Below, one piece after another: positions 7,480-64,000 of a stretch of 64,000 nucleotides of DNA. This DNA comes from Bacteroidaceae bacterium (GTDB lineage Bacteria > Bacteroidota > Bacteroidia > Bacteroidales > Bacteroidaceae), in assembly GCA_017465905.1 (NCBI GenBank), contig JAFTVE010000046.1, positions 1 to 64,000 of the forward strand, in the 5' to 3' direction. The translations under genes and the position numbers were made by a program. The notes below the pieces were generated by a model. That model was not told the origin of the DNA, did not search any database, and saw only the letters and a list, made by a program, of their open reading frames with translations. Within the stretch, counting starts at the first letter, position 1, and each line of letters begins with the position of its first letter.

Positions 7480-8073
7480 TTAATGACAATGTCCGCAGTC
7501 GCAGCCGCCATCGTGGTCGCCACATCCGTCGCATCCACCTCCACAGCTGTCGCATCCGCAGCTGCAACCACCCTGACCAGTGATGATGTTGATGAGTGCT
7601 TGAATCTCCTCCTTGGTGGCATCGTGCATTGAGAGCACCTTTCCTTCGAACACGAGGTTCATGCCAGCGTAGGGGTGGTTGAGGTCGATGGTAACAGCCT
7701 CTTCCTTAACCTCAACTACAAGCCCGTTCATACGCTGTCCATCAGCGTTCATGAGGGGAATGACGTTGCCGGGATATATCTGCTTGTCGTCAAACTTGCC
7801 ATTCACGCAGAAGATGTTCTTGTCTACGTCGAAGACAAGGTCGTCGCGGCGGTCGCCATTGGTCTCGTCCTTGGTGAGAGTGAAATTGAAGGTGTCGCCC
7901 TCCTTCAGTGTCTTGAACTTCTCCTCGAAAGCCTCGAAGGTGAAGCCGAGGCCTGTGGTGAACTGGAAGGGATGTTCCTCGGTAGCCTGTTCTACAAGCT
8001 CCTTAACGCCTTCAAACTCGGTATACATGTCGTACGATACAACAATCGTCTTGCTAGGATTGATTTCTGCCAT
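7480..8073 (-). CDS. SlyD-like FKBP-type peptidyl-prolyl isomerase with Cys/His-rich tail
   Basis: A 197-residue cytoplasmic PPIase/chaperone. The FKBP part (about 8-70 and 125-160) is split by an insert-in-flap domain, as in Sly[19 protein letters not shown] at the start, [17 protein letters not shown] before the end. The last ~30 residues are a metal-binding tail with nine Cys and three His (pattern [15 protein letters not shown] then CDCGHCH). Such tails bind nickel or zinc in SlyD and serve metal delivery or storage. The gene has its own promoter, back to back with that of the thioesterase gene. Confidence 0.9.
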
Positions 8074-47825: not shown

Positions 47826-48278
47826 ATGAAAAAGAGAGTTTTTATATCTTTCCTCTGTGCCCTGTTCTTGTCGGGTGCAGTATGTGCCAAGAGTTTGGTG
47901 CTTACACTCAGTGACGGCACGCTGGTGTATTATCTGCTGGGGGGCGACTCCAATCCCAAACTTCAATTTGTGGAGGGTGGTTTTATGCTTAATGCCGACA
48001 ATTATGGCTTTGCCAATGTGAAGAATTTCTATATCTCTAATGAGGACGATCCGAGCGGCATCGAGAATGTGCTTGTCGAGGGTGGGGTAGAGGTGCAAGG
48101 CAATCAGCTCGTGATTCCTACGGAAGGTTTGGTGAAGGTGTTTACCGCCGCTGGCAAGGAGGTGAAGGCCGAGACACGTGTCGTTTCAGGCAACACGATA
48201 GTTGTCCTCGGTACTCTGCCTCAGGGAGTATATGTGGTGAACGCAGGTGGTGCATCAATCAAAATTATGAAGAAATAA
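47826..48278 (+). CDS. Small secreted protein, type-IX-like C-terminal domain
   Basis: A 150-residue protein with signal peptide (MKKRVFISFLCALFLSGAVCA). The C-terminal half has the beta pattern of a Por secretion-system tail (VKVFTAAGKEVKAETRVVSG, then TLPQGVYVVNAGGASIKIMKK). The N-terminal part (LVLTLSDGTLVYYLLGGDSNPKLQF) resembles short regions at the start of several Prevotella/Bacteroides surface proteins. It is 9 bp before the larger HEIGH protein, so they form an operon. No enzymatic motif; it may be a partner or substrate adaptor. Confidence 0.78.
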   Translation: MKKRVFISFLCALFLSGAVCAKSLVLTLSDGTLVYYLLGGDSNPKLQFVEGGFMLNADNYGFANVKNFYISNEDDPSGIENVLVEGGVEVQGNQLVIPTEGLVKVFTAAGKEVKAETRVVSGNTIVVLGTLPQGVYVVNAGGASIKIMKK

Positions 48279-48287
48279 GGAGGCGAT

Positions 48288-50378: not shown

Positions 50379-50398
50379 ATCGCTTGATAAATACAATT

Positions 50399-50429
50399 GG
50401 GGGTGTGTCGTATTCATTGACACACCCCC
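50399..50429. terminator. Bidirectional terminator (HEIGH gene / argD)
   Basis: GGGGGTGTGTC / GTATTCATT / GACACACCCCC is a perfect 11-bp stem between converging genes with stops at 50378 and 50451. It shares the GGGTGTGTC core with the pgk terminator at 20749-20785. Confidence 0.82.
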
Positions 50430-50450
50430 GACTATTATAGTAGCTTCTTC

Positions 50451-51578
50451 TTATTCAGTAATCAGTTCCTTGAATGCGGCGAGGAACACGTCGGCCTGTG
50501 CCTTGCTGATGCCCAGTGCGGGAAGCAGGCGTACGGTTGACACGCCAGCGCCACCGGTGAAGATGTGCTTCTCGAAGAGCAGTCGCTTGCGGAAGTCCGA
50601 TGCTGAGCCCTCGATCTCGATACCTATCATCAAGCCGCGTCCGCGTACCTCCTTGATTTGGGGTATCTTCTTCAGTTCGTCGATGAGGTATGCACCCACC
50701 ACGGCAGCATTCTGCACGAGGTTCTCCTCGGCAAACACGTCGAGCACGGCGATGGCTGCTGCACATGCCAGATGGTTACCGCCGAAGGTGGTGCCCAGCA
50801 TGCCTGGCCAGGGAGTGTAGTGCGGTGCTATGAGCACGCCGCCGATGGGGAAGCCGTTGCCCATGCCCTTGGCCATGGTGATGAGGTCGGGGCGTATGTC
50901 GGCAATCTGGTGGGCAAAGAACTGGCCCGTGCGTCCGTAGCCCGACTGTATCTCGTCGAGGATGAGCGACACGCCATACTGTGTGGTGAGCTCGCGCAGC
51001 TGGCGCAGAAACTCCGGTGAGGGGCAGTGGATACCTGCCACGCCCTGTATGCCCTCGATGATGACGGCACAGAACTCGCCCGTCTTGAGCTTCTGCTCTA
51101 CGGCCTCGGCATCGCCCAGCGGCACGAACTCCACGTTGGCCGTGCGGTTGAAGGGGGCATTAATCTTGGGATTGTCTGTAGCGGCCACAGCGCCCGAGGT
51201 GCGTCCGTGGAATGCCTTGCCGAAGGCCAGCACCTTGGCTTTGCCGTTGTGGAACGATGCCAGCTTGATGGCGTTCTCATTGGCCTCGGCACCCGAGTTG
51301 CAGAGGAAGAGGCTGTAGTCGTCGTAGCCCGAGAGGCGACCCAGACGGTCGGCCAACTGTTGCTGCAGGCTGTTCTCTACAGAGTTGGAGTAGAAGCCCA
51401 GTCGGGCCACCTGCTCACTGATCATCTGCACGTAGTGCGGATGGGCATGGCCTATGGAGATGACGGCATGGCCGCCATAGAGGTCCAGATACTCGGTGCC
51501 TTGGGCATCGTATACGTAGCTGCCCTTGCCGCGCACGGGCTCTACGGGATAGAGGGAATATACGTTGAAGAGAGTCAT
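50451..51578 (-). CDS. argD: Acetylornithine (succinylornithine) aminotransferase
   Basis: A 375-residue PLP class III aminotransferase. FLCNSGAEANENAIKLA binds the cofactor phosphate, and ILDEIQSGYGRTGQFFAH and LITMAKGMGNGFPIGG carry the Asp and Schiff-base Lys237. Length is typical. It follows argC by 21 bp on the minus strand. In Bacteroides the natural substrate may be the N-succinyl form. Confidence 0.94.
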   Translation of the reverse strand: MTLFNVYSLYPVEPVRGKGSYVYDAQGTEYLDLYGGHAVISIGHAHPHYVQMISEQVARLGFYSNSVENSLQQQLADRLGRLSGYDDYSLFLCNSGAEANENAIKLASFHNGKAKVLAFGKAFHGRTSGAVAATDNPKINAPFNRTANVEFVPLGDAEAVEQKLKTGEFCAVIIEGIQGVAGIHCPSPEFLRQLRELTTQYGVSLILDEIQSGYGRTGQFFAHQIADIRPDLITMAKGMGNGFPIGGVLIAPHYTPWPGMLGTTFGGNHLACAAAIAVLDVFAEENLVQNAAVVGAYLIDELKKIPQIKEVRGRGLMIGIEIEGSASDFRKRLLFEKHIFTGGAGVSTVRLLPALGISKAQADVFLAAFKELITE

Positions 51579-51599
51579 CTTTAATTGAAAATTGAAAAT

Positions 51600-52592
51600 T
51601 TAGAACGCGTTCGCCTTCAGTCCAAGTCCTGCTTTCTCGTCAACGCCGAACATCAGGTTCATGTTCTGTACGGCCTGGCCTACGGCTCCTTTGAGGAGGT
51701 TGTCGATGATGCAGGTGATGACGGCCTTGCTGCCAAACTTGTCGATGTGTACGAGTGCCTTGTTGGTGTTGACCACCTGCTTCAGGTCGAGTGCCTTGTC
51801 CACGTAGTGCGTGAAGGCAGCGTCGGCGTAGAAGGTGCGGTACATGTCGGCTAGCTGCTCGGCTGTGGGGTTAGTGGGTGAGCCCTCAGCACCGTCGAAC
51901 TTCACCACCTCGGTGCAGAAGATGCCGCGGGCAAAGTCGCCACGGTAGGGGATGAAGTCGATAGAGGCTTCTAGTGAGCCTTGCAGCTCGGTGAGCGACT
52001 GGCGTATCTCGTGCAGATGCTGGTGGGTGAACACCTTATATATACTCATATTGTCGGTGCGCCAGCTGAAGTGCGTGGTGCCCACAGGCTTCTGTCCTGC
52101 ACCCGTAGAGCCGGTGATGGCGTTCACTGCCACATCGTGAGTGAGCAGTCCCGCCTTGGCCAAGGGCAGCAGACCCAGCTGTATGCAGGTGGCAAAGCAC
52201 CCCGGGTTGGCCAGATGCTGGCACTGCTGTATCTGCGCCTTGTGTATCTCGGGCAGTCCGTATACGTAGTCGTGGGTAGGTGCGGCGATGCGGAAGTCCT
52301 GCGCCAGGTCGATAATCTTCACGTGGGCAGGGATTGTGTGCTCCTGCAAGAACTGCTCGCTCTTGCCGTGGCCGAAGCAGAAGAACACCACGTCCACTTC
52401 GTCGAAGGGCATGGTATCGGTAAACCTCAGGTCGGTGTCGCCGAAGAGGCCCTCGTGCACATCGGCCACAAGGTTGCCTGCATTGCTCTCGCTGTTGGCA
52501 AAGACGATTTCCGCCTCGGGATGGTTCACCAGCAGGCGGATGAGTTCGCCGCTGGTGTATCCGGCAGCTCCAAGTATTCCTATTTTAATCAT
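51600..52592 (-). CDS. argC: N-acyl-gamma-glutamyl-phosphate reductase
   Basis: A 330-residue NADPH enzyme of arginine synthesis. The Rossmann motif is GILGAAGYTSGELIRLL; the catalytic Cys132 lies in NPGCFATCIQLG. The internal order and length fit ArgC type 1. It overlaps the end of the PspC gene region by 4 bp (start at 52592, PspC stop at 52589), so the two genes are coupled on the minus strand, followed by argD. Confidence 0.95.
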   Translation of the reverse strand: MIKIGILGAAGYTSGELIRLLVNHPEAEIVFANSESNAGNLVADVHEGLFGDTDLRFTDTMPFDEVDVVFFCFGHGKSEQFLQEHTIPAHVKIIDLAQDFRIAAPTHDYVYGLPEIHKAQIQQCQHLANPGCFATCIQLGLLPLAKAGLLTHDVAVNAITGSTGAGQKPVGTTHFSWRTDNMSIYKVFTHQHLHEIRQSLTELQGSLEASIDFIPYRGDFARGIFCTEVVKFDGAEGSPTNPTAEQLADMYRTFYADAAFTHYVDKALDLKQVVNTNKALVHIDKFGSKAVITCIIDNLLKGAVGQAVQNMNLMFGVDEKAGLGLKANAF

Positions 52593-52801
52593 TGGTTGAG
52601 ATAGCGGTTAGGTGCTTCGGGAATCAATATCATGAGGATGATGTATACGATGATTCCGCTGAAGGCGGTGAATATGGTCAGCAGGGTGTATACCACACGA
52701 GCTACCGTAACGTCGATGTTCGCATAGTTAGCGATGGCAGCACATACGCCTGCCAGCATACGTCCAGTGCGGGGACGCTCCATCTTCTTGGGTTCTGACA
52801 T
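52589..52801 (-). CDS. PspC-domain membrane protein
   Basis: A 70-residue protein with the PspC fold: RMLAGVCAAIANYANIDVTVARVVYTLLTIF, followed by a hydrophobic segment (SGIIVYIILMILIPE). PspC domains sense membrane stress or partner with phage-shock regulators. The gene is short, as usual for stand-alone PspC proteins. It precedes argC with a 4-bp overlap, an odd pairing. The likely -7 box is TACCTTTG (52844-52851). Confidence 0.9.
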   Translation of the reverse strand: MSEPKKMERPRTGRMLAGVCAAIANYANIDVTVARVVYTLLTIFTAFSGIIVYIILMILIPEAPNRYLNQ

Positions 52802-52933
52802 AGTTGTTACTTTTTGAAAGTATATATCCTATAAAAATCTTTACAAAGGTACGATAATTCTCACACAAAATTGCAAAGTGTAAGGCCGAAAAGGTGAAAA
52901 CGAGGAAAAATAATAGTTCCACCGTCCTGCTTC

Positions 52934-53797
52934 TCACACCGTCAGCCGCTTCGGTGTTGTCCCCGTATGCTTCTTGAAGAACTGCACAAAGGCCGATGGG
53001 GTGGAGAAGTTGAGCCTGTCGGCAATCTCCTGCACGGTGAGGTCGGTGGTGCGCAGCAGCATGGCTGCCTCAATGAGCAGCGCTTCGTGTATCCAGTCCA
53101 GGATGGGCCGCCCCGTGATGCGCTTGATGGCTGTGGAGAGGTATTTGGGTGTAAGGTTCAGGCGGTCGGCGTAGTAGTGCACGGTGTGCTCCTCGCGGAA
53201 GTGCAGTGCCAGCAGGCGGAAGAAGCGGTCGCTGAGGCTCTCGTGACGAATGGTCATGTCGGGCTGCAGGTGATAGATACGCTCATATTCGCCCAATATC
53301 TCCAGTATGAGGGCACTGAAGATGGCACTCACAATCTCGCGCTGGTAGCGCCCCTCCTCGTGCATCTCTTTATGGATGAAGCGGTAGTAGCTGTGCAGGT
53401 CGTCGAACTTGGCATCGGTGAGCGTGATCACCGCCCGGTAGCGCGAGTAGCCGAAAAAGTTGGTGTCCACGGGCGAGGGCAGCCGCAGGATATATTCGGG
53501 CAGCAGGGCTATGATGTTGTTCTCGGTGAGCAGCACCGGCTCTATGTAGTTGATGAGCTGGTTCTCGGAGAGTACGATCACGTTGTTTCCCTCCACCCGG
53601 TACTCCTTGCCATTGATGACCACACGCCCGCCCCTGCCCTTGCAGAGAATGATGATGAAGCCGCCCTTGAGGAGCAGGTTGGTGGCATCCTTGCGCGGCA
53701 GATGCAGGTCGAGGTTGATGAGGAAGTCCTTGCCACCGCCCTCGGCGATGAGTCGTGCCACGTCGATGTGCTCGATATTGTCGCGAAGTTTCTCCAT
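52934..53797 (-). CDS. AraC-family transcriptional regulator
   Basis: A 287-residue regulator. The N-terminal cupin-like sensor (about 20-170, IILCKGRGGRVVINGKEYRV) is followed by two helix-turn-helix motifs (HYYADRLNLTPKYLSTAIKRITG and VQEIADRLNFSTPSAFVQFFKKH, ending TGTTPKRL). It closes the conserved region just left of the accessory island. The upstream sequence is AT-rich. The effector is unknown. Confidence 0.92.
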   Translation of the reverse strand: MEKLRDNIEHIDVARLIAEGGGKDFLINLDLHLPRKDATNLLLKGGFIIILCKGRGGRVVINGKEYRVEGNNVIVLSENQLINYIEPVLLTENNIIALLPEYILRLPSPVDTNFFGYSRYRAVITLTDAKFDDLHSYYRFIHKEMHEEGRYQREIVSAIFSALILEILGEYERIYHLQPDMTIRHESLSDRFFRLLALHFREEHTVHYYADRLNLTPKYLSTAIKRITGRPILDWIHEALLIEAAMLLRTTDLTVQEIADRLNFSTPSAFVQFFKKHTGTTPKRLTV

Positions 53798-53962
53798 AGC
53801 AGCGTGTAAAAGCGAAGTTTGAAACAGCTTTCTTGCGACAAATATACGAAACTTCCGCTATATAGCCTTGCTTCGCAATGCTAAAAAACTATAAATCCGC
53901 CGTGCTTCCTTGTTTTGTGCTTCGTTTTTTTTTGTAACCGTTGATATTTCTGTACAAATCAC

Positions 53963-54156
53963 AAAGAATCTTAAAGAGGAAATTTTGAACATTTCTGTGC
54001 CCAAAATTGCAATTCCCCTTTGGGCACATATCCCTACCTTTGCAGCGATAATGTCTTTTTTCCACTGTCTGGCCGATGTAGTTCAATACAGAACACTCAT
54101 TCTCCAAACGCGTTGAATGGAATGGAAGATACAGGTTTAAGTCCTGTCATCGGCAC
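53963..54156 (+). repeat. 194-bp island-flanking direct repeat, copy 1
   Basis: Matches 62918-63111 base for base without gaps, with one mismatch seen (54069 C against 63024 A). In order it contains a 9-bp hairpin (GTGCCCAAA at 53997-54005 with TTTGGGCAC at 54019-54027), a -7-like TACCTTTG (54035-54042) and a tRNA-like sequence (54072-54155). The flanks outside the copies are unrelated. The two copies bracket an 8.8-kb accessory island. Confidence 0.92.
54072..54155 (+). other. tRNA-like sequence with enlarged anticodon loop, copy 1
   Basis: The acceptor stem GCCGATG/CATCGGC (7 bp), D-arm GTTC-AATACA-GAAC and T-arm ACAGG-TTTAAGT-CCTGT all pair perfectly, and A54155 sits at the discriminator position. 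The anticodon stem pairs TCATT with AATGG-type partners (five pairs plus C-G), but the loop is 12 nt instead of 7, with CTCCAAA (a CCA, Trp-type anticodon) followed by CGCGTT. The D-loop lacks GG. It is not a normal tRNA; it is a decayed or repurposed tRNA. Confidence 0.6.
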
Positions 54157-54197
54157 CGTTAGTATCCGCTTTGACGGTAATGTAAGGTTTCACTAAC

Positions 54198-54400
54198 CGA
54201 AACGCCTGCAAATCCCGTACAAAATCCGTAGCAATTTGTAAGGCAATTTCTTTGATTTGCTTACACAGTGCAGAAATTGGAAGTATAGACTTGCCCAACT
54301 CAAAAACATATAAGCTCAAAAACTAAGTTTTTTGCTTACTTCCTGCATTTTCCTAATGCCTCATGGCTGCGTTCTTTTCGCCCGCCTTGGGGATTGGGCG
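54198..54400 (-). repeat. Dispersed ~204-bp repeat, copy B (partner of 331-534)
   Basis: Reverse complement of the sequence at 331-534, with several small differences. It lies directly after tRNA-like copy 1 and before the DUF3791 promoter. A short frame (MSLYVFELGKSILPISAL) crosses it, but no family-level coding signal is visible. The rest of the gene-free stretch 53798-54517 is AT-rich and holds only the 194-bp repeat and the promoter at 54459-54489. Confidence 0.7.
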
Positions 54401-54458
54401 GATTGAGGGCACCGTTGCGATAGAAAATAGTTTATCCCACAATAAAACGGCCCAAACA

Positions 54459-54489
54459 ATTGTTATAACAAATAAAAAGCCTATATTTG
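54459..54489 (+). promoter_or_regulatory. Promoter of the DUF3791-DUF3990 module
   Basis: ATTG (54459-54462), 19-bp spacer and TATATTTG (54482-54489) match the Bacteroidales consensus with one -33 mismatch. Transcription would start close to 54497, about 20 bp before the ATG at 54518. Confidence 0.6.
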
Positions 54490-54517
54490 CAATGGCAAAC
54501 AACTATCCGCACTTGAT

Positions 54518-54733
54518 ATGAACTCGCAGACTCTAAACTTTACCATCTTCTGCGTTGGCAGCGTAGCCGACCACTTAAAGATGAATGCTCGCGACGTGTA
54601 CCACAAGTTGCAGAGCACAGGTATCATATCAGACTACATCGTCCCCTGCTATGATGTGTTGCATTCGTTTTCCAAGGAATACATTGTGGAGGATTTAATT
54701 GCATATATGAAGAAGAAAGGAGCACTGGCATGA
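54518..54733 (+). CDS. DUF3791 protein A (candidate antitoxin or accessory)
   Basis: A 71-residue protein of the DUF3791 type, ending in the family pattern of alternating charged helices (LHSFSKEYIVEDLIAYMKKKG). The ATG of the next gene overlaps its stop codon (ATGA), so expression is coupled. DUF3791 and DUF3990 genes are neighbours in many Bacteroidales and Firmicutes genomes. The small size and order before a toxin-like ADP-ribosyltransferase suggest an antitoxin or chaperone role, which is inference. Confidence 0.8.
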   Translation: MNSQTLNFTIFCVGSVADHLKMNARDVYHKLQSTGIISDYIVPCYDVLHSFSKEYIVEDLIAYMKKKGALA

Positions 54734-55203
54734 TACGCCTATATCATACTTCAAGCGTAGAGGTTCGCACTCCTGACATATGTCATTCGCGCGAACATCT
54801 TGACTTTGGCCGAGGTTTCTACCTGACTTCATTGCGCGAACAAGCAGAAAAATATGGGCAACGTTTTTTGCGCAAAGGCGAAACTGCCGTAATGAACATC
54901 TATGAATTGGACGAAGAGTTGCAAGAGTTCTCCCGCATCATCTTCAATGCTTACGATAGTAAATGGCTCGATTATGTCACGGCATGCCGTAAAGGACAAG
55001 ACCACACGATATATGATATTATTGAAGGTGGTATTGCCGATGACCAGGTGTTCGACACTATCGATCTCTACTTCTCTGGAGTATACTCCTACGAGCAAGC
55101 CCTCGACCAATTACGTTTCAAGCATCCCAACCATCAGGTATGCATCACCAGTCAATTGGTACTTGATAAGCATCTTCATTTTATTGAATCCATCAAACTC
55201 TGA
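54730..55203 (+). CDS. DUF3990 protein, ADP-ribosyltransferase-like
   Basis: A 157-residue protein of the DUF3990 family, which is grouped with ADP-ribosyltransferase folds. The likely NAD-binding set is LYHTSS (H6), then LDFGRGFYLTS (G29, F30, Y31, T33), a central YDIIEGGIADDQV and the C-terminal HPNHQVCITS, where Gln136 may be the third site. No signal peptide; a cytoplasmic target is expected. It is flanked by DUF3791 genes with a 4-bp overlap and a 3-bp gap, which looks like a toxin with two small partners. Confidence 0.82.
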   Translation: MIRLYHTSSVEVRTPDICHSREHLDFGRGFYLTSLREQAEKYGQRFLRKGETAVMNIYELDEELQEFSRIIFNAYDSKWLDYVTACRKGQDHTIYDIIEGGIADDQVFDTIDLYFSGVYSYEQALDQLRFKHPNHQVCITSQLVLDKHLHFIESIKL

Positions 55204-55206
55204 CCA

Positions 55207-55425
55207 ATGGTAGCCAATAAGATTATTCTACAACGTAAATATGCTCGCATAGTGCAGATGTTTGCCGAAAAAACTGGATACTCTTACGAGGAGGCTTTGG
55301 GTATGTTCTATGATTCCAAAACCTTCGAGCTCATTAGCGAAGGCATTGCCGATATGCACTGCATGAGCGATGAGTATTTGGTGGATGAGCTGATAATAGA
55401 GTTGGGTGTCAACAAGAAAGAATAG
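55207..55425 (+). CDS. DUF3791-like protein B
   Basis: A 72-residue small protein starting MVANKIILQRKYARIVQMF. It has the same size and helical charge pattern as the first DUF3791 protein (a central EALGMFYDSKTFELISEG and the tail DEYLVDELIIELG), although sequence identity between the two is low. It is the last gene of the triad. Having two different DUF3791-type proteins around one DUF3990 gene is unusual. Confidence 0.72.
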   Translation: MVANKIILQRKYARIVQMFAEKTGYSYEEALGMFYDSKTFELISEGIADMHCMSDEYLVDELIIELGVNKKE

Positions 55426-55735
55426 TACCACACACATACATGTGCGGAATTCCACATGCTTCTTCTTGCTGAAGATTTTCGTAAGGTGGTGGTGAACTTG
55501 ATTAACCAATGAACCTTTAGGTCGCCGGCCGAAGGCGGCAGCCTTAGCTAAAAGTCCGAAGGCGGCAGCCTTGACGAAAAAGCCGAAGGGAAAGGCAAAT
55601 GAATAAGGGCTGTTAAGGACATAACTCCACAGAAGGCCTTCGAAGTATGTCTGCGCCTATTCTTCGGAAACCTTCTGTGGATTTTGTGGATATTGAAAAC
55701 CCTAGTTTCGTGTGGGATTTTCTTTTATATGACGC
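55426..55735. repeat. Gene-free stretch with CCGAAGGCGGCAGCCTT repeats and hairpin
   Basis: CCTTTAGGTCGCCGGCCG opens the stretch (55514-55531), then two copies of CCGAAGGCGGCAGCCTT (55529-55545, 55556-55572) and a variant ending GCCGAAGGGAAAGGC. This is an expanded form of the repeat at 27791-27826. The hairpin copy at 55627-55680 (see the DUF1016 cassette) completes the stretch. No gene is visible. Confidence 0.65.
55627..55680. repeat. 54-bp hairpin repeat, left flank of the DUF1016 gene
   Basis: CCACAGAAGGCCTTCGAAG at one end and an imperfect complement (TCTTCGGAAACCTTCTGTGG) at the other form a hairpin. The copy at 56903-56956 has the same length with five differences. The two copies are in the same orientation and bracket exactly one gene, like a cassette. 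They may serve as terminators, recombination sites or both. Confidence 0.7.
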
Positions 55736-56818
55736 TTATTCCCCTTGTTGCGCCTGAAACACGCTTTTCTGTAGCTCAATCTCCTCGCGAAGCTGCTCTA
55801 CGGTAGGCAAGTAAGTGAGATATTTGGCTTGGAAGAGGCGCTCATTATCGTGCATCACCGAATATCGTGCCATATCCTCGCTTGTCTCCGAGCAAAGGAT
55901 AAGACCAATGGTGGGATTATCGCCTTCGGTACGTTTCAGTTGGTCGTACATTCTCACATACATATCCATTTGGCCTACATCCTGATGAGTGATGCGCGAG
56001 GTCTTGAGGTCCACAAGAAGGAAGCATTTGAGGATATAGTTATAGAATACCAAATCGATGAAGTAGTCGCCCATGTCAGTGCGGATATGTTGCTGCCGCG
56101 CGACAAAAGCATATCCCTTACCCAGCTCCATCACAAATTTCTGTATGTGTGTGATGATAGAAGCCTCCAGCTTGGTCTCGGTGAAGTCACTATTGGGAGA
56201 CAACCCAAGGAACTCGGCCACAACAGGATTCTTGATAAACTCCAGCTTGTCATTCTGGAAGTCGGCTGTCAACGCCTGCATTTCATCGCGCACCGCCTCC
56301 TTGGCTTGCGATTGCAGCAGGCGGTAATAATACTGCGAAGCAATGTTTCGGTCGAGCGTACGCGAGCTCCATCCCTCGCTAATCGCCTCGTTCATATACC
56401 AGTTGCGAGCGGCATCATCAGTCACACGGAGTAGTGCGCGATAATGCGTCCAAGCAAGTGACAAAGATTTTCCACTCACTGCGTGGAAAATGTCGGGGAA
56501 ACACTTGTAGAACTGTGCGAATTGATACAGATTGGTTTTAGCAAATCCTTTACCATAGTTCTCGGTGAGGTAGTCTGCTAATTTCACAACCACCTCTTTG
56601 CCATATTCAGCACGGCTTTCACCCTTCAGTTCTTCAATGGCAATGCGCTTGCCTAGCAACCAGTTGCGCTGAATCATCGCTACATTGACTGCGCGATAGG
56701 CATAGCTACGCGACTGCTCTATGATGAGACTCGCATCCTTAAAGATGTTGTCGCTATACGCTACTTGCAGCAAATCCTTGTTCTCGTCCGACATGGTAAT
56801 CTTGTATATAGGTTTCAA
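55736..56818 (-). CDS. DUF1016 (YhcG-type) nuclease-like protein
   Basis: A 360-residue protein of the YhcG/DUF1016 family. The N-terminal DUF1016_N domain (about 20-165) is helical. The C-terminal PDDEXK-type domain has E231 in MELGKGYAFVA, D255 in YFIDLVFYN and the LVDLK motif (D270-x-K272). Such proteins accompany restriction-modification and other defence genes. It is complete, monocistronic, and bracketed by the 54-bp hairpin repeats. A start at MSDENKD (residue 9) is possible. A TACATTTG -7 box lies at 56822-56829. Confidence 0.9.
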   Translation of the reverse strand: MKPIYKITMSDENKDLLQVAYSDNIFKDASLIIEQSRSYAYRAVNVAMIQRNWLLGKRIAIEELKGESRAEYGKEVVVKLADYLTENYGKGFAKTNLYQFAQFYKCFPDIFHAVSGKSLSLAWTHYRALLRVTDDAARNWYMNEAISEGWSSRTLDRNIASQYYYRLLQSQAKEAVRDEMQALTADFQNDKLEFIKNPVVAEFLGLSPNSDFTETKLEASIITHIQKFVMELGKGYAFVARQQHIRTDMGDYFIDLVFYNYILKCFLLVDLKTSRITHQDVGQMDMYVRMYDQLKRTEGDNPTIGLILCSETSEDMARYSVMHDNERLFQAKYLTYLPTVEQLREEIELQKSVFQAQQGE

Positions 56819-56902
56819 CTACAAATGTACAGTATTTTTCCAATATACTGATTAAAGTCTGTAAAATTTCATCTTGGGCTCGGTAAAAGATGCGCCATAA
56901 AA

Positions 56903-56956
56903 CCACAGAAGGCCTTCGAAGTACGCCTGCGCCTATTCTTCGAAAGCCTTTTGTGG
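56903..56956. repeat. 54-bp hairpin repeat, right flank of the DUF1016 gene
   Basis: Second copy of 55627-55680. Changes relative to copy 1 are two in the loop (T to C) and three in the 3' arm. It stands 17 bp from the stop codon of the SusD gene, so it may also serve as its terminator. Confidence 0.7.
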
Positions 56957-56972
56957 ATTGACTCTTTTATAG

Positions 56973-58994
56973 TCATTCTGTTACATATGCCTCATTTTGC
57001 TTGAGATTTGGATTAATGTTGATTTCACGTTCGCATATAGGAAAGAACAAACTACTAATATTACTCAACTTGGTACGGATAGCCTTATGGTTAGATTCAT
57101 ATTTATGTTCTACCAATAAATCAAGCATTGGGGCTGTTTCACCATCACACAAAGCTTTGCGAACAAGGTCATACCATCTTTTCCCTTCAAAGGCTAATTC
57201 TCGTTGTCTTTCCACTAACACTAATGCTCGCATATCTTCTGCATTCTGAGGGAATGACAGCCTATTTTCTGCAGCAACTTCGTCTATTCTATTTGAACGA
57301 TAATATACGGCAGATACTATTTCAAAAGCATTCTCCAAATCCATAGATGTAGCATCTGCACGATACGCTAAGGCTTCTGCTTTCATTAACAGAATATCTG
57401 TTATACGGTACATAATCCAATTGCTGTTAATAGCTGGTCTCCCGTCTATAACTTCTATCTCGCGATAAACAGGAGTCAGTTGAGAATGTAACTTTGAGAA
57501 AACTCCATTATGCGTTCTTGCCGTGTATTTTGTTATTGGTAAATTCTTATCACTTTCGTACATAACATTGATAAAACTTGCACGTCTAATGTCTGTAGAA
57601 CAATAAAGTCCCTCTGTTATACTTGATGACATTTGTGACAAGTAGTCTGATGCAACAATAATAGCATCATTCCCCTCTTCTCTGCCATAAAAATATGGAA
57701 TAAAAGAGTTGTAGTAGTTGTTGCTATATTGTAATTCAAGAATACTTTCTTCACTATTTTGTGTTCCAAAAACGACATCATAGGCCTTGTTCCCCTCCGA
57801 TTGTGGCTCGTCATTAAAACTATAGACCATTGGATAATCTTTTCCGTCATTACTAAAGTCAAAGTTACCCCTTTGGTTAAACCCGTCAATTATAAGGTCA
57901 CAATAAGCAATACATTCTGTATAGTATTGGTCGCACAGACCATCAGAGCCAACCGATTCATATTGAGTAAATGCGGCTTTCCATAATAAAACATCTGCTA
58001 TAATGGCTCGTACTGCATCCGAAGTAATACGTCCCTTGTTTTCGGTATTCGTAGGGTATCCCCCAGACTTCATCACCAAAATTTCAGCTTCATATAAATC
58101 TGTTAATATTTGATCTAAAGCTACGATAGGAGACACCTGAGAAGGATATAAATTTTGACTATCATTACTCATAACCTCTGTAAGTAGAGGAATGTCTCGG
58201 AATGTGCGCACCAAATAAAAATGGCACAATGCGCGTATGGTTAACATCTCGCCACGGTGAACATTCCATTCTTCTTCGGTATATTCAGGATCTAAAGCCA
58301 AAACGCTGGGAGCATATTTTAGCACAATATTACAATTATTAATAACCTCATAGAAATCAGCCCATGAAGTGTAGCTATTGGTAGGAAGGAGGTTAACATC
58401 TAAGATGCTTCTGATGTCAGTAGGCGCATAGTCTCCCTTAATGACATTATCACCGCGCAGTTCACTCCACGCTAAAAGCCTTGAAGAGAATTCAAAATCT
58501 GTCATTAAGCGGTAAGCATTTGAAACCACGTTTTCTACATCGGCTTTGGTTTTCCAATAGTTCTCTATAACTATTACATCAGGAGGAACTACCGTTTTAA
58601 CGCCTTTGTCCTGTTTTACAACAATCTCGGCAATCTTTTCTGCGGCAACTTTTAATTGGATTTTAGCTGAACGAGTTGTATCGCTATCATTGCTGTCTAT
58701 TCGTAGCACAACTTTATGTAAACCTGCATTACCTGAATTTGGTTCTACATAGCACCACGACGTTGCTCCGTCAAGATAGACTATATCCATTGTCCACTTC
58801 GTGTTAATTTGGAAAGCAATCTTAACTTCGCAAGAATCACTATCAAGAGACAAGTCCTCTATGAAATAATTAACATATCCATTAGGAACTGATACTTCAG
58901 GAATAATATAGGAAGACTCTTCTTTGCAGGAGATAAGGGCTGTGGTGCAGCACAGCAGCAAAATAGGAATCGCAAATATAAAAGTTCTCTTCAT
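56973..58994 (-). CDS. BACON-SusD/RagB lipoprotein without SusC partner
   Basis: A 673-residue lipoprotein (signal ends ALISC, Cys23). An N-terminal BACON-like domain (about 40-130, with IAFQINTKWTMDIVYLDGATSWCYVEPNSG in two pieces) is followed by a SusD fold (VVSNAYRLMTDFEFSSRLLAWSELRGDNVI) and the C-terminal family region (LVLVERQRELAFEGKRWYDLVR). SusD proteins bind nutrients with a TonB-dependent SusC porin, which is absent here. The gene is more AT-rich than the rest of the window, a sign of transfer. Confidence 0.88.
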   Translation of the reverse strand: MKRTFIFAIPILLLCCTTALISCKEESSYIIPEVSVPNGYVNYFIEDLSLDSDSCEVKIAFQINTKWTMDIVYLDGATSWCYVEPNSGNAGLHKVVLRIDSNDSDTTRSAKIQLKVAAEKIAEIVVKQDKGVKTVVPPDVIVIENYWKTKADVENVVSNAYRLMTDFEFSSRLLAWSELRGDNVIKGDYAPTDIRSILDVNLLPTNSYTSWADFYEVINNCNIVLKYAPSVLALDPEYTEEEWNVHRGEMLTIRALCHFYLVRTFRDIPLLTEVMSNDSQNLYPSQVSPIVALDQILTDLYEAEILVMKSGGYPTNTENKGRITSDAVRAIIADVLLWKAAFTQYESVGSDGLCDQYYTECIAYCDLIIDGFNQRGNFDFSNDGKDYPMVYSFNDEPQSEGNKAYDVVFGTQNSEESILELQYSNNYYNSFIPYFYGREEGNDAIIVASDYLSQMSSSITEGLYCSTDIRRASFINVMYESDKNLPITKYTARTHNGVFSKLHSQLTPVYREIEVIDGRPAINSNWIMYRITDILLMKAEALAYRADATSMDLENAFEIVSAVYYRSNRIDEVAAENRLSFPQNAEDMRALVLVERQRELAFEGKRWYDLVRKALCDGETAPMLDLLVEHKYESNHKAIRTKLSNISSLFFPICEREININPNLKQNEAYVTE

Positions 58995-59098
58995 TTTGAG
59001 TTTTTACTAATTTGTTCAACAAAATCTTATGAAAGAAAAAGGCTTTTCATTGTCGTTTCCTTCCAAATTTATATTATTAGTACTGGCTGCAATATTTC

Positions 59099-59539
59099 TT
59101 ATATTGAATCTTGGAAAGATTCGTTGTACTCGTTTTGTATGAAATAGTTGGTCAAATCCAATTCTTTGGCATTAGTATCATATAAAACAAAGCGCCCTTC
59201 ATCAGTACGTATCCTCAAATTTGTGCGTCCATTTTTTAATGTAGAAACATTGTTGTTTTCTATATATTGTATTAAGCATTCGACAGGTATTAGCAATATC
59301 CCCATAAATCCTGCTGTCATGCAAAGGAATGAAACTTCCTTTTCCAGTAACATGTCCTTGTCTACTCCAGACCACAAAACATTTTGAGGTCGATAGATCT
59401 GTGATTCTTTTAGAAGAATTATACCTTTGGGCGATTGATACAGTTTTTGTTTGGAGTTTATGATATTCATTGGCTTAAACCCCATAGGCAATAGGGTCAA
59501 TACTCTATCGTACGACAAACAATTGTTGGATTTTTGCAT
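59099..59539 (-). CDS. Unrecognised 146-residue protein
   Basis: A small protein starting MQKSNNCLSYDRVLTLLPMG. A hydrophobic stretch (FLCMTAGFMGILLIPVECLIQYI, in two pieces) may be one membrane segment. No family is recognised. It has a convincing promoter (59559-59591) and its end lies 104 bp upstream of the SusD start, so the two genes could be cotranscribed. AT-rich like the SusD gene. Confidence 0.55.
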   Translation of the reverse strand: MQKSNNCLSYDRVLTLLPMGFKPMNIINSKQKLYQSPKGIILLKESQIYRPQNVLWSGVDKDMLLEKEVSFLCMTAGFMGILLIPVECLIQYIENNNVSTLKNGRTNLRIRTDEGRFVLYDTNAKELDLTNYFIQNEYNESFQDSI

Positions 59540-59558
59540 AATATTTATCTATTTTGTG

Positions 59559-59591
59559 CAAATGTACATATAAATTCTTACTCCACTCAAA
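59559..59591 (-). promoter_or_regulatory. Promoter of the unrecognised gene and SusD
   Basis: TTTG (59588-59591), 21-bp spacer, TACATTTG (59559-59566) on the minus strand. The start site would fall about 10 bp before the ATG at 59539. Confidence 0.65.
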
Positions 59592-59607
59592 TAATATATA
59601 AGAAAAG

Positions 59608-59760
59608 GCGTGAAACCATCCGTTACTCGCCTTCTTAGTAGGTACCGCCAAGTGACCTTCCACACAACAAGCACAGAATAGTCCACACCCTATCGGGGTG
59701 AACCTTCAGTCTGCTTGTCCTCGTGTGTTGAAAATTGGCGGTTTTCACTAAGAAGAGAAC
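59608..59760 (-). ncRNA. Rod-shaped RNA candidate (6S-like architecture)
   Basis: Five nested helices give one long rod: 59631-59639 with 59747-59755 (9 bp), 59644-59651 with 59735-59742 (8 bp), 59661-59665 with 59723-59727 (5 bp), 59667-59673 with 59712-59718 (7 bp), and 59686-59690 with 59696-59700 (5 bp, loop TATCG). Between the second and third helix lies an asymmetric bubble, as in 6S RNA. In minus direction it is followed by AAGGCG...CGCCTTTTCTT, a terminator-like hairpin. A perfect promoter lies upstream at 59960-59991. I have no family match to confirm it as 6S. Confidence 0.5.
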
Positions 59761-59959
59761 AAGAGCCAAAAGCTCCATATCTATATTTATTAAGAACGAA
59801 CGGAACGCTTTTTCGTGTTAATGATTTGTTTTTATTTGGCTTTAATTAAGCCTTGAAAGCAGTAATGCTTTGCATCACAAACCTTCGCGAAAGCGTCTGT
59901 CCGGGTTACTCCATAGGCAATTCGTTTTATTTGTTAATACTGTATTGTTTACTTATCCG

Positions 59960-59991
59960 CAAAGGTAGCTAAACCCTGCGAGAAATGCAAA
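59960..59991 (-). promoter_or_regulatory. Perfect minus-strand promoter upstream of the rod RNA
   Basis: TTTG (59988-59991), 20-bp spacer, TACCTTTG (59960-59967). It starts 18 bp after the BRO-type gene's stop, and no gene begins within 400 bp downstream. A structured non-coding transcript or long leader (about 410 nt to the ATG at 59539) is therefore the likely product. The stretch 59761-59950 shows small hairpins only, for example GGCTTTAATTAAGCC. Confidence 0.65.
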
Positions 59992-60008
59992 TCTATGTCC
60001 TCTATTGT

Positions 60009-60839
60009 CTAATCCTCTTTCTTGTTGAGCAACAAACCATCCTTGGCGTTCATTGGTGATATTACCGCTTTGCCGGTTTTCTCTTCCAGTTCCATACGGG
60101 CATTGCGGGCAATCTCGCCTCCTTGCCGTGCTATCTGCTGATGCTCGCCAAAGGTTTCGGGATTACGGCTTTCTGAGATTTCTTTGGTCGACAATTCGGC
60201 CAACATATTCAGCACCAATTCCTTGTTGGTCATATTATCTCGCAAGTTTTCCTTTTTCAGTCCCTTGAACTGCTTATACTCGCGAGCAGTCATGTCGGCC
60301 CAAGTCTGATAGATGATGTCGGTGAGCGTGGCAAACTGCACTCCCTCCTGCAGCCCATGACGTTTCCATTCGTCGGTAAGCTCCTTGCGTATCTCGATAG
60401 ACTTCAGGCGTTGGTTTATCCAGTTGTCGGAGTATCCCAGTCGCTTGTAGTCCATCATGGCCTGGTTGATTGACAGTTCGGGGTCTTGCATCTGGTCGAG
60501 TCGCTCAGCTGCCACTCGTGCCATCCATAGTTTGAAAGGCTCCGCCTTGGGCGAGGGGATGGATTGGATGATGCGGAACATTGCTTCGGTGTCAGCGAAA
60601 TTAACCTTTTGCTTACCTCCAGCTGTTTGTATGGAAAGGGGGGTGACAATTTGTCCCCACCCTTCGGCCAACTGTGGATCGCGCTTTCGCATTTTCTTCA
60701 GATAATCGGTGGGATTGACACTGTCGGTCAATACTGATACCACATCAACAACGGAGAAATACCATTTCTCTTGTTGGTCGTCCCATATGGTGCGCACCCG
60801 CTTCTCTTCGAATAGCTTTATTGCATTGTGCTGTGTCAT
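60009..60839 (-). CDS. BRO-N / DinD-type protein
   Basis: A 276-residue protein. The BRO-family N-terminal domain (about 10-115) shows KRVRTIWDDQQEKWYFSVVDVVSVL and a RIIQSIPSPKAEPFKLWMARVA block. The C-terminal half (LGYSDNWINQRLKSIEIRKEL, then YKQFKGLKKENLRDNMT) is of the DNA-damage-inducible protein D type. Such proteins are common on prophages and genomic islands, with a DNA-binding or damage-response role. Here it stands alone between the rod RNA promoter and the Fic gene. Confidence 0.88.
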   Translation of the reverse strand: MTQHNAIKLFEEKRVRTIWDDQQEKWYFSVVDVVSVLTDSVNPTDYLKKMRKRDPQLAEGWGQIVTPLSIQTAGGKQKVNFADTEAMFRIIQSIPSPKAEPFKLWMARVAAERLDQMQDPELSINQAMMDYKRLGYSDNWINQRLKSIEIRKELTDEWKRHGLQEGVQFATLTDIIYQTWADMTAREYKQFKGLKKENLRDNMTNKELVLNMLAELSTKEISESRNPETFGEHQQIARQGGEIARNARMELEEKTGKAVISPMNAKDGLLLNKKED

Positions 60840-60986
60840 AGTAACGCAAATTTATCAAAAATCTATGGAATAGCAAAGCATTCCTCAAATTTGTTTATCT
60901 CCGTTTCAGTTCCTTTCCCGGTTCCTGCATTCGGTAAAACTCCGCTATGCGGAAAATCATGCTCACACAAATGAATAAAAAGCATC

Positions 60987-61052
60987 ATTTCTTGCCGATA
61001 TCGGCAAGAAATAGTACTTTTGTGGTGTTGTAATGAAGAGAACTTGCCGATA
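60987..61052 (+). promoter_or_regulatory. Palindromic operator and promoter of the Fic gene
   Basis: A perfect 26-bp palindrome (60987-61012, core CTTGCCGATATCGGCAAG) covers the -33 TTG (60992-60994) and most of the spacer. The -7 TACTTTTG is at 61015-61022 with the expected 20-bp spacing. A 10-bp half-site CTTGCCGATA repeats at 61043-61052, just downstream of the start of transcription. This is a textbook layout for repression, probably by the Fic protein itself through its N-terminal HTH. Confidence 0.8.
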
Positions 61053-61065
61053 AGAGGGTTTAATT

Positions 61066-61947
61066 ATGGAGTATATATCTGTATCAGACTTTGCCAGACA
61101 GCATGGAGTGTCAGAGCGCACGGTGCGCAACTATTGTGCTACGGGGAAGATAGAAGGGGCTTTCCTCACGGGAAAGACGTGGAACATCCCTGCCGAGGCC
61201 ACGCTACCCAGGCGGGGCAAAGCATACGCATTACCATTGCTCAAGATACTGCGCGAGCAGAAACAAATGCGTCTGACAGGGGGCATCTACCATCGCACAC
61301 AGATAGACCTTGCCTACAACTCGAACCACATAGAGGGCAGCCGACTTACACATGACCAAACGCGCTATATCTTCGAGACCAACACCATAGGCATCACCAC
61401 CGAGAGCGTCAACGTAGACGACATCATAGAGACCAGCAACCATTTCCGCTGCCTTGACTTCATCATTGATCGTGCCGAAGAGCGCCTCACCGAGGGTTTC
61501 ATCAAAGGGCTACACGGGATGATGAAGAATGGCACGTCGGACAGTCGGCACGAGTGGTTTGCCGTAGGAGAATATAAGCGTTTGCCCAATGAGGTGGGCG
61601 GCAATGAGACTACGCCCCCTGAGGAGGTTCATCGAGAGATGCAGAGGTTGCTGAAGGAGTATAATGCCAAGAACGAGAAGACGCTGGAAGACATCCTCGA
61701 CCTGCACCAGCGGTTTGAGCGTATACACCCCTTCCAAGATGGCAATGGCCGTGTGGGCCGGCTCATTATGTTCAAGGAGTGCTTGGCTTGCGGACATGTG
61801 CCGTTCATCATCACCGACGAGTTGAAGATGTTCTACTACCGCGGCCTGCAACACTGGCCCCATATCAAGGGTTACCTGATGGACACCTGCCTCACAGCAC
61901 AGGACAACTACAAAGCTTTGTTAGACTACTTCAAAGTGAAGTATTAA
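61066..61947 (+). CDS. Fic-family protein with N-terminal HTH and built-in inhibitory helix
   Basis: A 293-residue protein. The first ~45 residues form a MerR/excisionase-like HTH (MEYISVSDFARQHGVSERTV). The Fic motif is HPFQDGNGRVGR (221-232), intact at all catalytic positions (H221, D225, GNGR). The N-terminal inhibitory motif SNHIEG (86-91) has the S/T-x3-E-G/N pattern, so this is an autoinhibited class II-type enzyme. It would AMPylate a target protein. The HTH and the palindrome at 60987-61012 suggest autoregulation. Confidence 0.92.
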   Translation: MEYISVSDFARQHGVSERTVRNYCATGKIEGAFLTGKTWNIPAEATLPRRGKAYALPLLKILREQKQMRLTGGIYHRTQIDLAYNSNHIEGSRLTHDQTRYIFETNTIGITTESVNVDDIIETSNHFRCLDFIIDRAEERLTEGFIKGLHGMMKNGTSDSRHEWFAVGEYKRLPNEVGGNETTPPEEVHREMQRLLKEYNAKNEKTLEDILDLHQRFERIHPFQDGNGRVGRLIMFKECLACGHVPFIITDELKMFYYRGLQHWPHIKGYLMDTCLTAQDNYKALLDYFKVKY

Positions 61948-61994
61948 TAGGCAGTGAGGTATACAATCCCCAATAAATTTCTACACAGCGATAC

Positions 61995-62072
61995 TCCAGT
62001 CTCACTGTGGTGAGACTGGAATTTCTGTGTGTAGAGACTGCAATCTCTCTATAGTGAGACTCGAGTCTCACT
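61995..62072. terminator. Hairpin cluster after the Fic gene
   Basis: TCCAGTCTCAC / TGTG / GTGAGACTGGA (61995-62020) is a perfect 11-bp stem nested in TACACAG...CTGTGTGTA. The perfect 20-bp palindrome AGTGAGACTCGAGTCTCACT lies at 62053-62072. The GAGACT/AGTCTC words occur five times. It acts as a terminator or as binding sites for a dimeric regulator. The stretch 61948-62320 has no gene beyond this. Confidence 0.65.
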
Positions 62073-62320
62073 TTGCTGAATTTATTTGGTACTGGGATGT
62101 GGCTGATATACTGTATGGTGTGAGCGACTGGGGACGGGCTTGCAACTGTGCGGAATCACCAATCGTATTCCTCCACGTAGGCATCGAAGTCGGGGAGGTC
62201 GGTGATGCCAAGGCGTGTCATGGCTTGGCGGATGTGCTCTTGGGTGGCAGGGTCGTTCGGACTGACTGCCACCACTGGTGCGGTATTATCGTCCAATGCT
62301 GCAATTCCCCTGTGTCGTCG

Positions 62321-62857
62321 CGCACCTTCTTTACCGAGGAGCAGCAGGGGGTTGCGTCGGCATTCCACGCCGTATACACCTTCCTCGAAACGATTTTGGC
62401 AGATAAACACACGGAGGGTAAGTATGAGCAAGGCGTGTGCGTATTTCGCTGCCTTCTGTTGGGCATACGCGACAAGAGTGCCCGCTACCAGGAGCCATGG
62501 CGGAAGGTCGAACCGGGAAACTCGATGGGCCATTACAATCGCTTTATGGTATTGCTCAATCAGCACTGCAAGGTCCATCACGACGTTGCTTTCTATGCCT
62601 GTCAGCTCCATATCACCTCTCAATACCTCGGACGCATCTGCCGCAAGTATGACGGGCGCGGACCAAAAGAGATTATTGACGAAATGCTGCTGTTGCAACT
62701 GAAGTCTACCCTCAAGAATACCGAAAAGTCGATGAAGGAGATTAGCTACGAGTACAATTTCTCTAACTTCTTCTTCATGTGCAGCTTCTTCCGCCGCAAC
62801 GTGGGTATCAGTCCTTCGTAGTTTCGCGCCAAGTACCGTGATGGAGGGCAGGTATAA
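62321..62857 (+). pseudogene. AraC-family regulator pseudogene
   Basis: The frame shows the C-terminal half of an AraC regulator: RTFFTEEQQGVASAFHAVY, then YNRFMVLLNQHCK, ACQLHITSQYLGRICRKYDG, ISYEYNFSNFFFM and FFRRNVGISPS. A TAG at 62819-62821 stops it, and FRAKYRDGG follows in the same frame. The N-terminal sensor is not recognisable. On the opposite strand a tail (GITDLPDFDAYVEEYDW, ending 62156) may be the relic of another gene, so the region is a decay zone. Confidence 0.7.
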
Positions 62858-62917
62858 GCATTTACTTGTCATGGCTGCTGTCCTGACAAATAGGGACGTC
62901 CACAACGTACGATTCAT

Positions 62918-63111
62918 AAAGAATCTTAAAGAGGAAATTTTGAACATTTCTGTGCCCAAAATTGCAATTCCCCTTTGGGCACATATCCCTACCTTTGCAG
63001 CGATAATGTCTTTTTTCCACTGTATGGCCGATGTAGTTCAATACAGAACACTCATTCTCCAAACGCGTTGAATGGAATGGAAGATACAGGTTTAAGTCCT
63101 GTCATCGGCAC
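62918..63111 (+). repeat. 194-bp island-flanking direct repeat, copy 2
   Basis: Second copy of 53963-54156, with the same hairpin, -7-like element (62990-62997) and tRNA-like sequence. This copy directly precedes the small membrane protein gene at 63137, which is probably its original context. The island lies between the two copies. Confidence 0.92.
63027..63110 (+). other. tRNA-like sequence, copy 2
   Basis: Identical to 54072-54155: acceptor, D- and T-stems paired, CCA-type loop enlarged to 12 nt. It ends 26 bp before the next gene. Two identical copies mean either recent duplication or selection. Confidence 0.6.
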
Positions 63112-63136
63112 TGCTGAGCTAAAGTACAATCATCCA

Positions 63137-63682
63137 ATGAAAAAGAAGTTATCACTCTCTACGAATAAGAAGTCGGCATCGGAAGGAGAATTCATCGATG
63201 TCAAGTGGAACTGCGGTGCCTGCCCTGATTCCTTGCTCTTGGCAATCGACTCGGGCTATAAGTGCTATACCATTCCTATTGCGGACAGCGGTAGCACACG
63301 CATCGTGATGACACGCTCAAAGAGGAAAACGACCATTACCTTAAAGGCTCTCATCTCCGGGAAGAGGGTTTCAAAAAGCACAAGCATCCGCGTAAGGAAC
63401 AGCAAGCAGAGCCGTTCCTCCAGTGCCGACGGCGCAGGTCGCATGAAGATGCGTAGGGAGAAACTGTATGCCAAATGGTGTGTCTTCCGTGCACAAATGA
63501 AATACTGGTGGCTCTCCCTCAAGAAATGGCAGAAGGCACTTTATATCGCATTGTTGGTGCTATGGTTTGCAATGCTTTTGCTCCCTTGGGGCAGCAAACC
63601 AAAAAGTTCAGTGCCAAGTAATCAGGTTCAGACACCTTCGTCAACAGTATTTGTTGAGCAACCACAAAATCATTTCGTATAA
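63137..63682 (+). CDS. Small membrane protein of unknown function
   Basis: A 181-residue protein from MKKKLSLSTNKKSASEGEF. The frame is open upstream through the 194-bp repeat, but that part is tRNA-like and not coding. A lysine/arginine-rich soluble N-terminal part is followed by one strong membrane helix near the end (about 139-157, ALYIALLVLWFAMLLLPWG) and a polar tail. No family is recognised. It is 39 bp before the TerB-like gene and may be cotranscribed. Confidence 0.7.
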   Translation: MKKKLSLSTNKKSASEGEFIDVKWNCGACPDSLLLAIDSGYKCYTIPIADSGSTRIVMTRSKRKTTITLKALISGKRVSKSTSIRVRNSKQSRSSSADGAGRMKMRREKLYAKWCVFRAQMKYWWLSLKKWQKALYIALLVLWFAMLLLPWGSKPKSSVPSNQVQTPSSTVFVEQPQNHFV

Positions 63683-63721
63683 TCATCTGTTGTCTTCTCA
63701 TTAAACTCCTTATAATACAAT

Positions 63722-64000
63722 ATGGGACTCGGGAAATGGATAACAGGAGCACTCGGATGGGCACTGTTTGGACCTATTGGAGGCATCCTTGGATATTTTA
63801 TTACATCAAAACTGGAGGAACTCTCTGAGGCGACTGCCGCACAGGGAGAGCAGCAGTCATGGAATCAGGGGCAGAGAAACAGTTTCCTTATGAGCCTTCT
63901 GGTGCTGTCGGCATCAGTCGTCAAGGTTGATGGCAAGACTACATCGCAGGAACTCTCGACACTTCGCAACTTCTTTGCAAGAAACTTCGGTCCACAGGCG
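63722..64000 (+). CDS. TerB/DjlA-like protein (N-terminal part, cut by window edge)
   Basis: The first 93 codons show a glycine-rich membrane-associated start (GKWITGALGWALFGPIGGILGYF) and the beginning of a TerB domain (SFLMSLLVLSASVVKVDGKTT). In the known DjlA-like layout a J domain would follow. Such proteins assist DnaK-type chaperones or membrane-stress responses. The rest lies outside the window. Confidence 0.8.
   Translation, partial: MGLGKWITGALGWALFGPIGGILGYFITSKLEELSEATAAQGEQQSWNQGQRNSFLMSLLVLSASVVKVDGKTTSQELSTLRNFFARNFGPQA

Follow-up and report, generated by a model that had tools for sequence, protein, structure and literature searches.

Two copies of a promoter and a rare, tRNA-derived structured RNA flank an accessory island in a Bacteroidaceae genome

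The window analysed here, 64,000 nucleotides (nt) of contig JAFTVE010000046.1 from a Bacteroidaceae bacterium (GenBank assembly GCA_017465905.1, genome G000 below), carries towards its right end an island of accessory genes between two direct repeats, and we find that this repeat pair consists of two copies of a promoter followed by a rare, structured RNA derived from a transfer RNA (tRNA). An earlier note on this DNA had described repeats of 194 base pairs (bp) with one mismatch and no gap, and had overlooked their nature as promoter and tRNA-like RNA, the latter indicated by an Rfam match. Comparison of 53963-54156 with 62918-63111, which lie 8,761 bp apart, confirmed a gapless match with a single mismatch at 54069 (C/A), and showed that it reaches further left, to 53952 and 62907, resulting in 205 bp of 98% identity with extra left-edge differences at 53956, 53958 and 53962. 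No third copy was found in G000 as searched (2.84 Mb, 79.7% complete, 54 contigs), where the next best match had an E value of 0.28 compared to about 1e-105 and 1e-97 for the two copies. The elements of the repeats are:

53952..54156, + strand: R-left, left copy of the 205-bp promoter-RNA repeat
54035..54042, + strand: promoter-like box TACCTTTG of the left copy, TAC(C/T)TTTG conserved
54072..54155, + strand: tRNA-like RNA, left copy, 84 nt (Rfam RF00005; 101.4 bits with our own model R3)
62907..63111, + strand: R-right, right copy of the 205-bp promoter-RNA repeat
62990..62997, + strand: promoter-like box TACCTTTG of the right copy, placed by alignment
63027..63110, + strand: tRNA-like RNA, right copy, 84 nt (Rfam RF00005 and our own model), its 3' end 26 nt ahead of the following start codon

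Alignment of 13 of the 17 known RNA copies (outside it stand the second window copy, whose RNA is identical, and those of G014, G006a and G007) revealed a cloverleaf in which 97.7% of the cells are paired, with 97.8% in the acceptor helix and 100% in both the D and T helices. Changes on both sides occurred in 15 of the 23 pairs compared to 7.8 in shuffles, and 38 cells were double-changed compared to 12.2; none of 500 shuffles reached the observed covariation for four of the five measures, while 27 of 500 did so for the fifth. With 11 sequences, 14 pairs were double-changed versus 4.0 in shuffles, and with 10 sequences 8 pairs versus 2.2. All seven pairs of the anticodon arm covary. Across seven distant pairs of copies the RNA is 85-93% identical, in contrast to 55-75% for the adjoining promoter region. 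These analyses demonstrate a structured RNA with a covarying cloverleaf.

Just upstream of the RNA, a TAC(C/T)TTTG box is kept in all ten aligned copies; the Bacteroidota -7 promoter consensus is TAnnTTTG. A sigma-70 scan of 53700-54600 returned two promoter-like sites compared to 1.8 expected and a terminator scan of the same interval returned none, both being uninformative either way. Against RF00005 (gathering score 29), the two window copies score 45.4 bits each and rank below all the others of the 35 tRNA matches in their own genome; Rfam matches to SNORA49, mir-4524 and ylbH were below gathering and were set aside. ARAGORN reported no tRNA in the window and called none of 16 RNA copies (two in the window and 14 in relatives, the copy of Bacteroides sp. 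SIG136 standing outside this count), because the anticodon arm is oversized. This arm is about 15 nt too long, its stem measuring about 7 bp (5 bp in a tRNA) and its loop about 15-18 nt (7 nt in a tRNA), and the standard 7-nt anticodon loop on a 5-bp stem was not found in the 13 aligned RNAs. In the alignments, a palindrome is found within the loop: copies from the window's genus have ACGCGT, with one exception, and those of a second genus have CACGTG. The open-access literature searched, to which subscription journals do not belong, contained no description of such an RNA.

Sequence comparisons point to tRNA-Arg(CCU) as the probable, though not proven, ancestor of the RNA. The RNA and this tRNA (Rfam RF00005) share the dimensions of the acceptor, D and T arms, the AGAT variable loop and A73, and they differ in the enlarged anticodon arm that ARAGORN passes over and in the short D-loop without GG of the Bacteroidaceae copies. 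When 46 of the shorter matches to our model were fetched and checked, 33 proved to be Arg(CCU), seven Arg(ACG), two Arg(CCG), two Thr and two Gly; as ARAGORN calls all 46 normal tRNAs, model matches of ordinary tRNA length were excluded as members. In pairwise scores, Arg(CCU) of another genome ranks first for three of five RNAs and Arg(CCG) for the G255 RNA, with no clear relative for the G697 RNA. Within G000, which also carries a normal tRNA-Arg(CCT), the RNA scored 56.7 against Gly(TCC), slightly ahead of Arg(CCT) at 55.5. Descent from tRNA-Gly, our first idea, was replaced by Arg(CCU) on the model matches and the (mixed) pairwise scores, and T-loop position 56 was dropped as a hallmark of the RNA because normal tRNAs of G000 have the same base. 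As a separate observation, genome G749 contains a 69-nt tRNA-like model match with a shrunken anticodon arm (L110:1501-1569), located near other tRNA calls and itself uncalled there by ARAGORN.

The RNA is rare. Strong matches were detected in 8 of 19 genomes of the window's genus (10 copies), 11 of 301 in the family sample and 3 of 44 of the second genus. Matches of at least 87 nt were seen in 3 of 393 genomes of the order sample (G000, G349, G697), 3 of 247 of the family of G697 (G697, G349, G921) and 1 of 395 of the phylum sample, namely G000 itself. A pattern scan of a contig collection retrieved 11 contigs, with SIG136 as the one additional genome, and 7 of these 11 records refer to the gut of sheep, water buffalo or water deer. 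An exact pattern scan of a viral collection gave no matches, although such a pattern may overlook divergent copies, and blastn found no match in phage records at E 1e-5 or in plasmid records at E 0.01.

The genes and other features around the repeats are:

52934..53797, - strand: AraC-type regulator of the left flank (Pfam HTH_18, 1.4e-18)
54157..54411, no strand: left end segment of the island, beside the RNA in G002, G006, G007 and, partly, G018
54518..54733, + strand: DUF3791 protein, PDC-M13A (Pfam, PADLOC)
54730..55203, + strand: DUF3990 protein, PDC-M13B (Pfam, PADLOC)
55207..55425, + strand: DUF3791 protein, PDC-M13C (Pfam, PADLOC)
55620..55683, no strand: palindromic repeat of 64 bp on the left side of the DUF1016 gene, with 8 matches in G000
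55736..56818, - strand: DUF1016/YhcG nuclease-like protein, PDC-S02 (Pfam, PADLOC)
56896..56959, no strand: second copy of the 64-bp repeat, 89%
56973..58994, - strand: SusD-like protein with BACON domain (Pfam)
59099..59539, - strand: open reading frame (ORF) of 146 amino acids (aa) without Pfam match
60009..60839, - strand: BRO-N protein, PDC-S13 (Pfam, PADLOC)
61066..61947, + strand: Fic protein, PDC-S04 (Pfam, PADLOC)
62027..62821, + strand: AraC-like remnant (Pfam HTH_18, 1.8e-11)
63137..63682, + strand: first gene after the right RNA, its 181-aa product matching nothing in Pfam or NCBIfam
63722..64000, + strand: start of a DjlA-like protein gene continuing beyond the window (NCBIfam NF006948, 2.2e-5, below cut-off)

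In line with the accessory content and missing integrase described in the earlier note, all six island proteins submitted to PADLOC matched candidate-defence families (the SusD-like protein and the 146-aa ORF lay outside this set), and a Pfam scan of nine ORFs at the island gave no integrase or transposase match. The guanine-plus-cytosine content per kilobase is 36-51% in 54000-62999 compared to 50-58% in the left flank (48000-53999). In G009, a gene that looks intact precedes the RNA, and part of the AraC-like remnant is 70% similar to it (blastn). Two side observations concern other repeats: an inverted, about 80% similar copy of 54157-54411 lies near the window start (316-534), and a palindromic repeat of 64-74 bp lies on both sides of the DUF1016 gene in the window and, at the same locus in G002, of a Kinase-PolyVal gene (L054:7051-7124 and 7922-7995), a layout that looks as if single genes were swapped between short repeats.

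Comparison of this locus across relatives, which rests on draft genomes, revealed an empty site and alternative gene contents. The left-flank AraC gene is common to G002, G006, G007, G014 and G018 (blastn). In G014, the left flank (52949-54160) is joined via one repeat copy to the right flank (62907-64000) without an island, in the order AraC gene, one copy, 63137 gene and neighbours, up to a calcium-ATPase gene, and this is the single-repeat, island-free arrangement that the earlier note had suggested looking for. This single copy has the R-left states at 53956, 53958, 53962 and 54069 and the R-right sequence beyond 54157, and the two window copies, whose left edges differ, share states absent from five aligned relatives (53968 A, 54103 T). 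The pattern, drawn from few sites, would fit exchange between the copies and island loss in G014. In G007, one copy is followed by the island's left end, other genes and then the calcium-ATPase gene; in G018, the copy is followed by what looks like an inversion of the part up to 62255; and the G006 contig ends within the island. Accessory content between the AraC and calcium-ATPase genes differs among G000, G002, G007 and G014. On the right, the suggestion that both sides of the island are ordinary chromosome fails: this side is accessory too, because the 63137-63682 gene was found in only 3 of 18 genus genomes searched.

Loss of the island in one step, as the earlier note had proposed, is supported by the empty site in G014 and limited by G002. 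There, the order is AraC gene, one copy, the same left end, a RhuM-type gene (S23 in PADLOC), BRO, Fic and calcium-ATPase, so that BRO and Fic genes matching those of the window (60739-62255, 97.7%) occupy the same position, with the left copy only. G002 comes close to what the earlier note had named as refutation, the same genes in the same place without the repeats, with a single copy retained. Because G002 holds two island genes behind a single copy, the repeat pair does not define the island, and the right copy is therefore to be counted with the following module, not with the end of the island.

At 7 of 14 loci (a count to which G006a, G007 and G018 do not belong), the RNA ends 26-42 nt ahead of an ATG, before four unrelated gene families: the 63137-type gene (right copy of G000, and G014), CDP-alcohol phosphatidyltransferase (G012, G006, G009), a DUF3943 protein (G697) and phospholipase A1 (G349). 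Judged by Pfam names, two of these four families act on phospholipids. This spacing makes a leader role our best guess for the RNA. In G921, the DUF3943 gene starts 161 nt past the RNA, and the CDP-alcohol gene of G000, G007 and G010 has a similar upstream region but without the RNA. On the other side, the RNA lies directly behind a TolC gene in the second genus, exporter genes are found upstream of it in G697 and G349, and a gene near the RNA in G194 matches AbiD (PADLOC). We further observed that the SIG136 copy (L103:5646-5732) lies directly behind HlyD-RND-TolC-type genes (names by eye), with no ORF of at least 60 aa after the RNA within the short stretch examined, and that in G155 (L030, minus strand) an open frame runs from inside the RNA past its 3' end and then breaks off, the part 3' of the RNA resembling what we take to be the start of an AbiEii-type gene.

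The reading we lean towards, with some reserve, is that the promoter-RNA unit heads exchangeable accessory modules and serves as their homology anchor. The repeat, a promoter with a rare tRNA-derived RNA without a normal anticodon loop, would form a 5' leader ahead of accessory modules, and the window would hold two modules in a row, promoter-RNA with the defence-candidate island and then promoter-RNA with the 63137 gene and its neighbours. The 205 shared bp would provide homology for ordinary recombination, and a crossover between the copies would remove the island in one step, leaving one promoter-RNA before the next module as arranged in G014. Crossover as the mechanism, loss as its direction in G014, transcription of the unit and the leader function of the RNA are what we infer from these arrangements. 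A bolder version, which we regard as possible but rather doubtful, is that an RNA derived from tRNA-Arg(CCU) left translation and became a portable 5' leader in Bacteroidales, moving with its promoter before unrelated genes (phospholipid, unknown) and controlling or processing their transcript, and that its duplicates let defence modules exchange by ordinary recombination, so that one regulatory RNA would also serve as recombination anchor.

Beside the G002 locus, several observations weigh against the favoured reading. The other 7 of the 14 loci have no gene start at 26-42 nt, and from the left copy of the window it is 362 nt to the first island gene. Against a conserved RNA, only three of nine other loci with the RNA reach the RF00005 gathering score, and the G921 RNA has two unpaired acceptor cells. 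Single-sequence folding separates the RNA from shuffled sequence only moderately, with z -1.5 for 107 nt of the right copy (13 of 200 shuffles were as good) and -2.2 to -6.4 for six trimmed sequences. The repeat junctions are those of a draft assembly, from which excision is a prediction. The flanking-gene trees are partly resolved and disagree in detail: the AraC tree leaves the placement of G014 unresolved (0 of 4 inner branches starred), and the calcium-ATPase tree groups G014 with G002 (100/99). Beyond the AraC gene, the genes to the left are not the same in G014, G006 and G007, which points to more than one rearrangement.

tRNA genes are classic integration sites. They are also noted as such in PMC5635113, and the repeats could be attL and attR of an integrative element in the tRNA-like gene whose integrase was lost or lies elsewhere, in agreement with a tRNA-like gene at the border and an empty site in G014. 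However, the repeat spans the promoter and the whole gene (205 bp) and not just its 3' end, G002 and G007 have one copy only, and the Pfam scan of the island ORFs gave no integrase, nor was one recognised by eye in the ORFs around other copies (mostly not library-searched), so that we consider such integration unlikely. An assembly chimera, in which the sequences of two strains in one sample (promoter-RNA-island in one, promoter-RNA-63137 gene in the other) were fused within the 194 bp that they share, draws on all 11 matching contig records being titled metagenome-assembled genome (MAG), on the window genome probably being one as well (79.7% complete, 54 contigs), and on 194 identical bases exceeding the length of common short reads; yet R-right departs from R-left at three left-edge sites, so that the island is bordered on its right by a copy with a distinct edge whatever took place within the repeat, and a false join seems improbable to us. 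A decaying tRNA pseudogene whose repeats are a chance duplication without function would match the 0 of 16 ARAGORN calls, the two broken acceptor pairs in G921 and the absence of the RNA from most related genomes, but is quite improbable given compensatory changes in 15 of 23 pairs and an RNA conserved more strongly than its adjoining promoter region.

Among known systems, the E. coli thrS operator and T-boxes are tRNA-like mRNA leaders. Like these, the RNA is structured, related to tRNA and located a short distance ahead of a start codon; in contrast, the leader here would be a full tRNA-derived cloverleaf, and the five Rfam matches in 53000-64000 (E of at most 5) included no T-box. CreT, the RNA of the CreTA system, is not known to be a cloverleaf, whereas the RNA here is. 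CreT sequesters tRNA, as stated in PMC8501985, and the two are alike as tRNA-tied small RNAs near defence genes. Integrase-free hotspots with recombination at flanking genes (PMC5635113) likewise have defence-rich variable content between shared flanks, no integrase found and homologous recombination as the proposed driver, whereas the candidate anchor here is a repeated non-coding promoter-RNA unit and not core genes only. As to raised recombination at the flanks, the signs here are limited to the private sites that the two window copies share and to the differing trees of the flanking genes.

Because ARAGORN passes over the oversized anticodon arm, this RNA family would be missed by annotation relying on that program. 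The exchange model can be tested, since G014, G002 and G000 show the same locus in three different states. If the RNA is indeed a leader travelling with its promoter, it would exemplify the conversion of a tRNA into a regulatory element, and the repeats would offer a route for gain and loss of islands without integrases.

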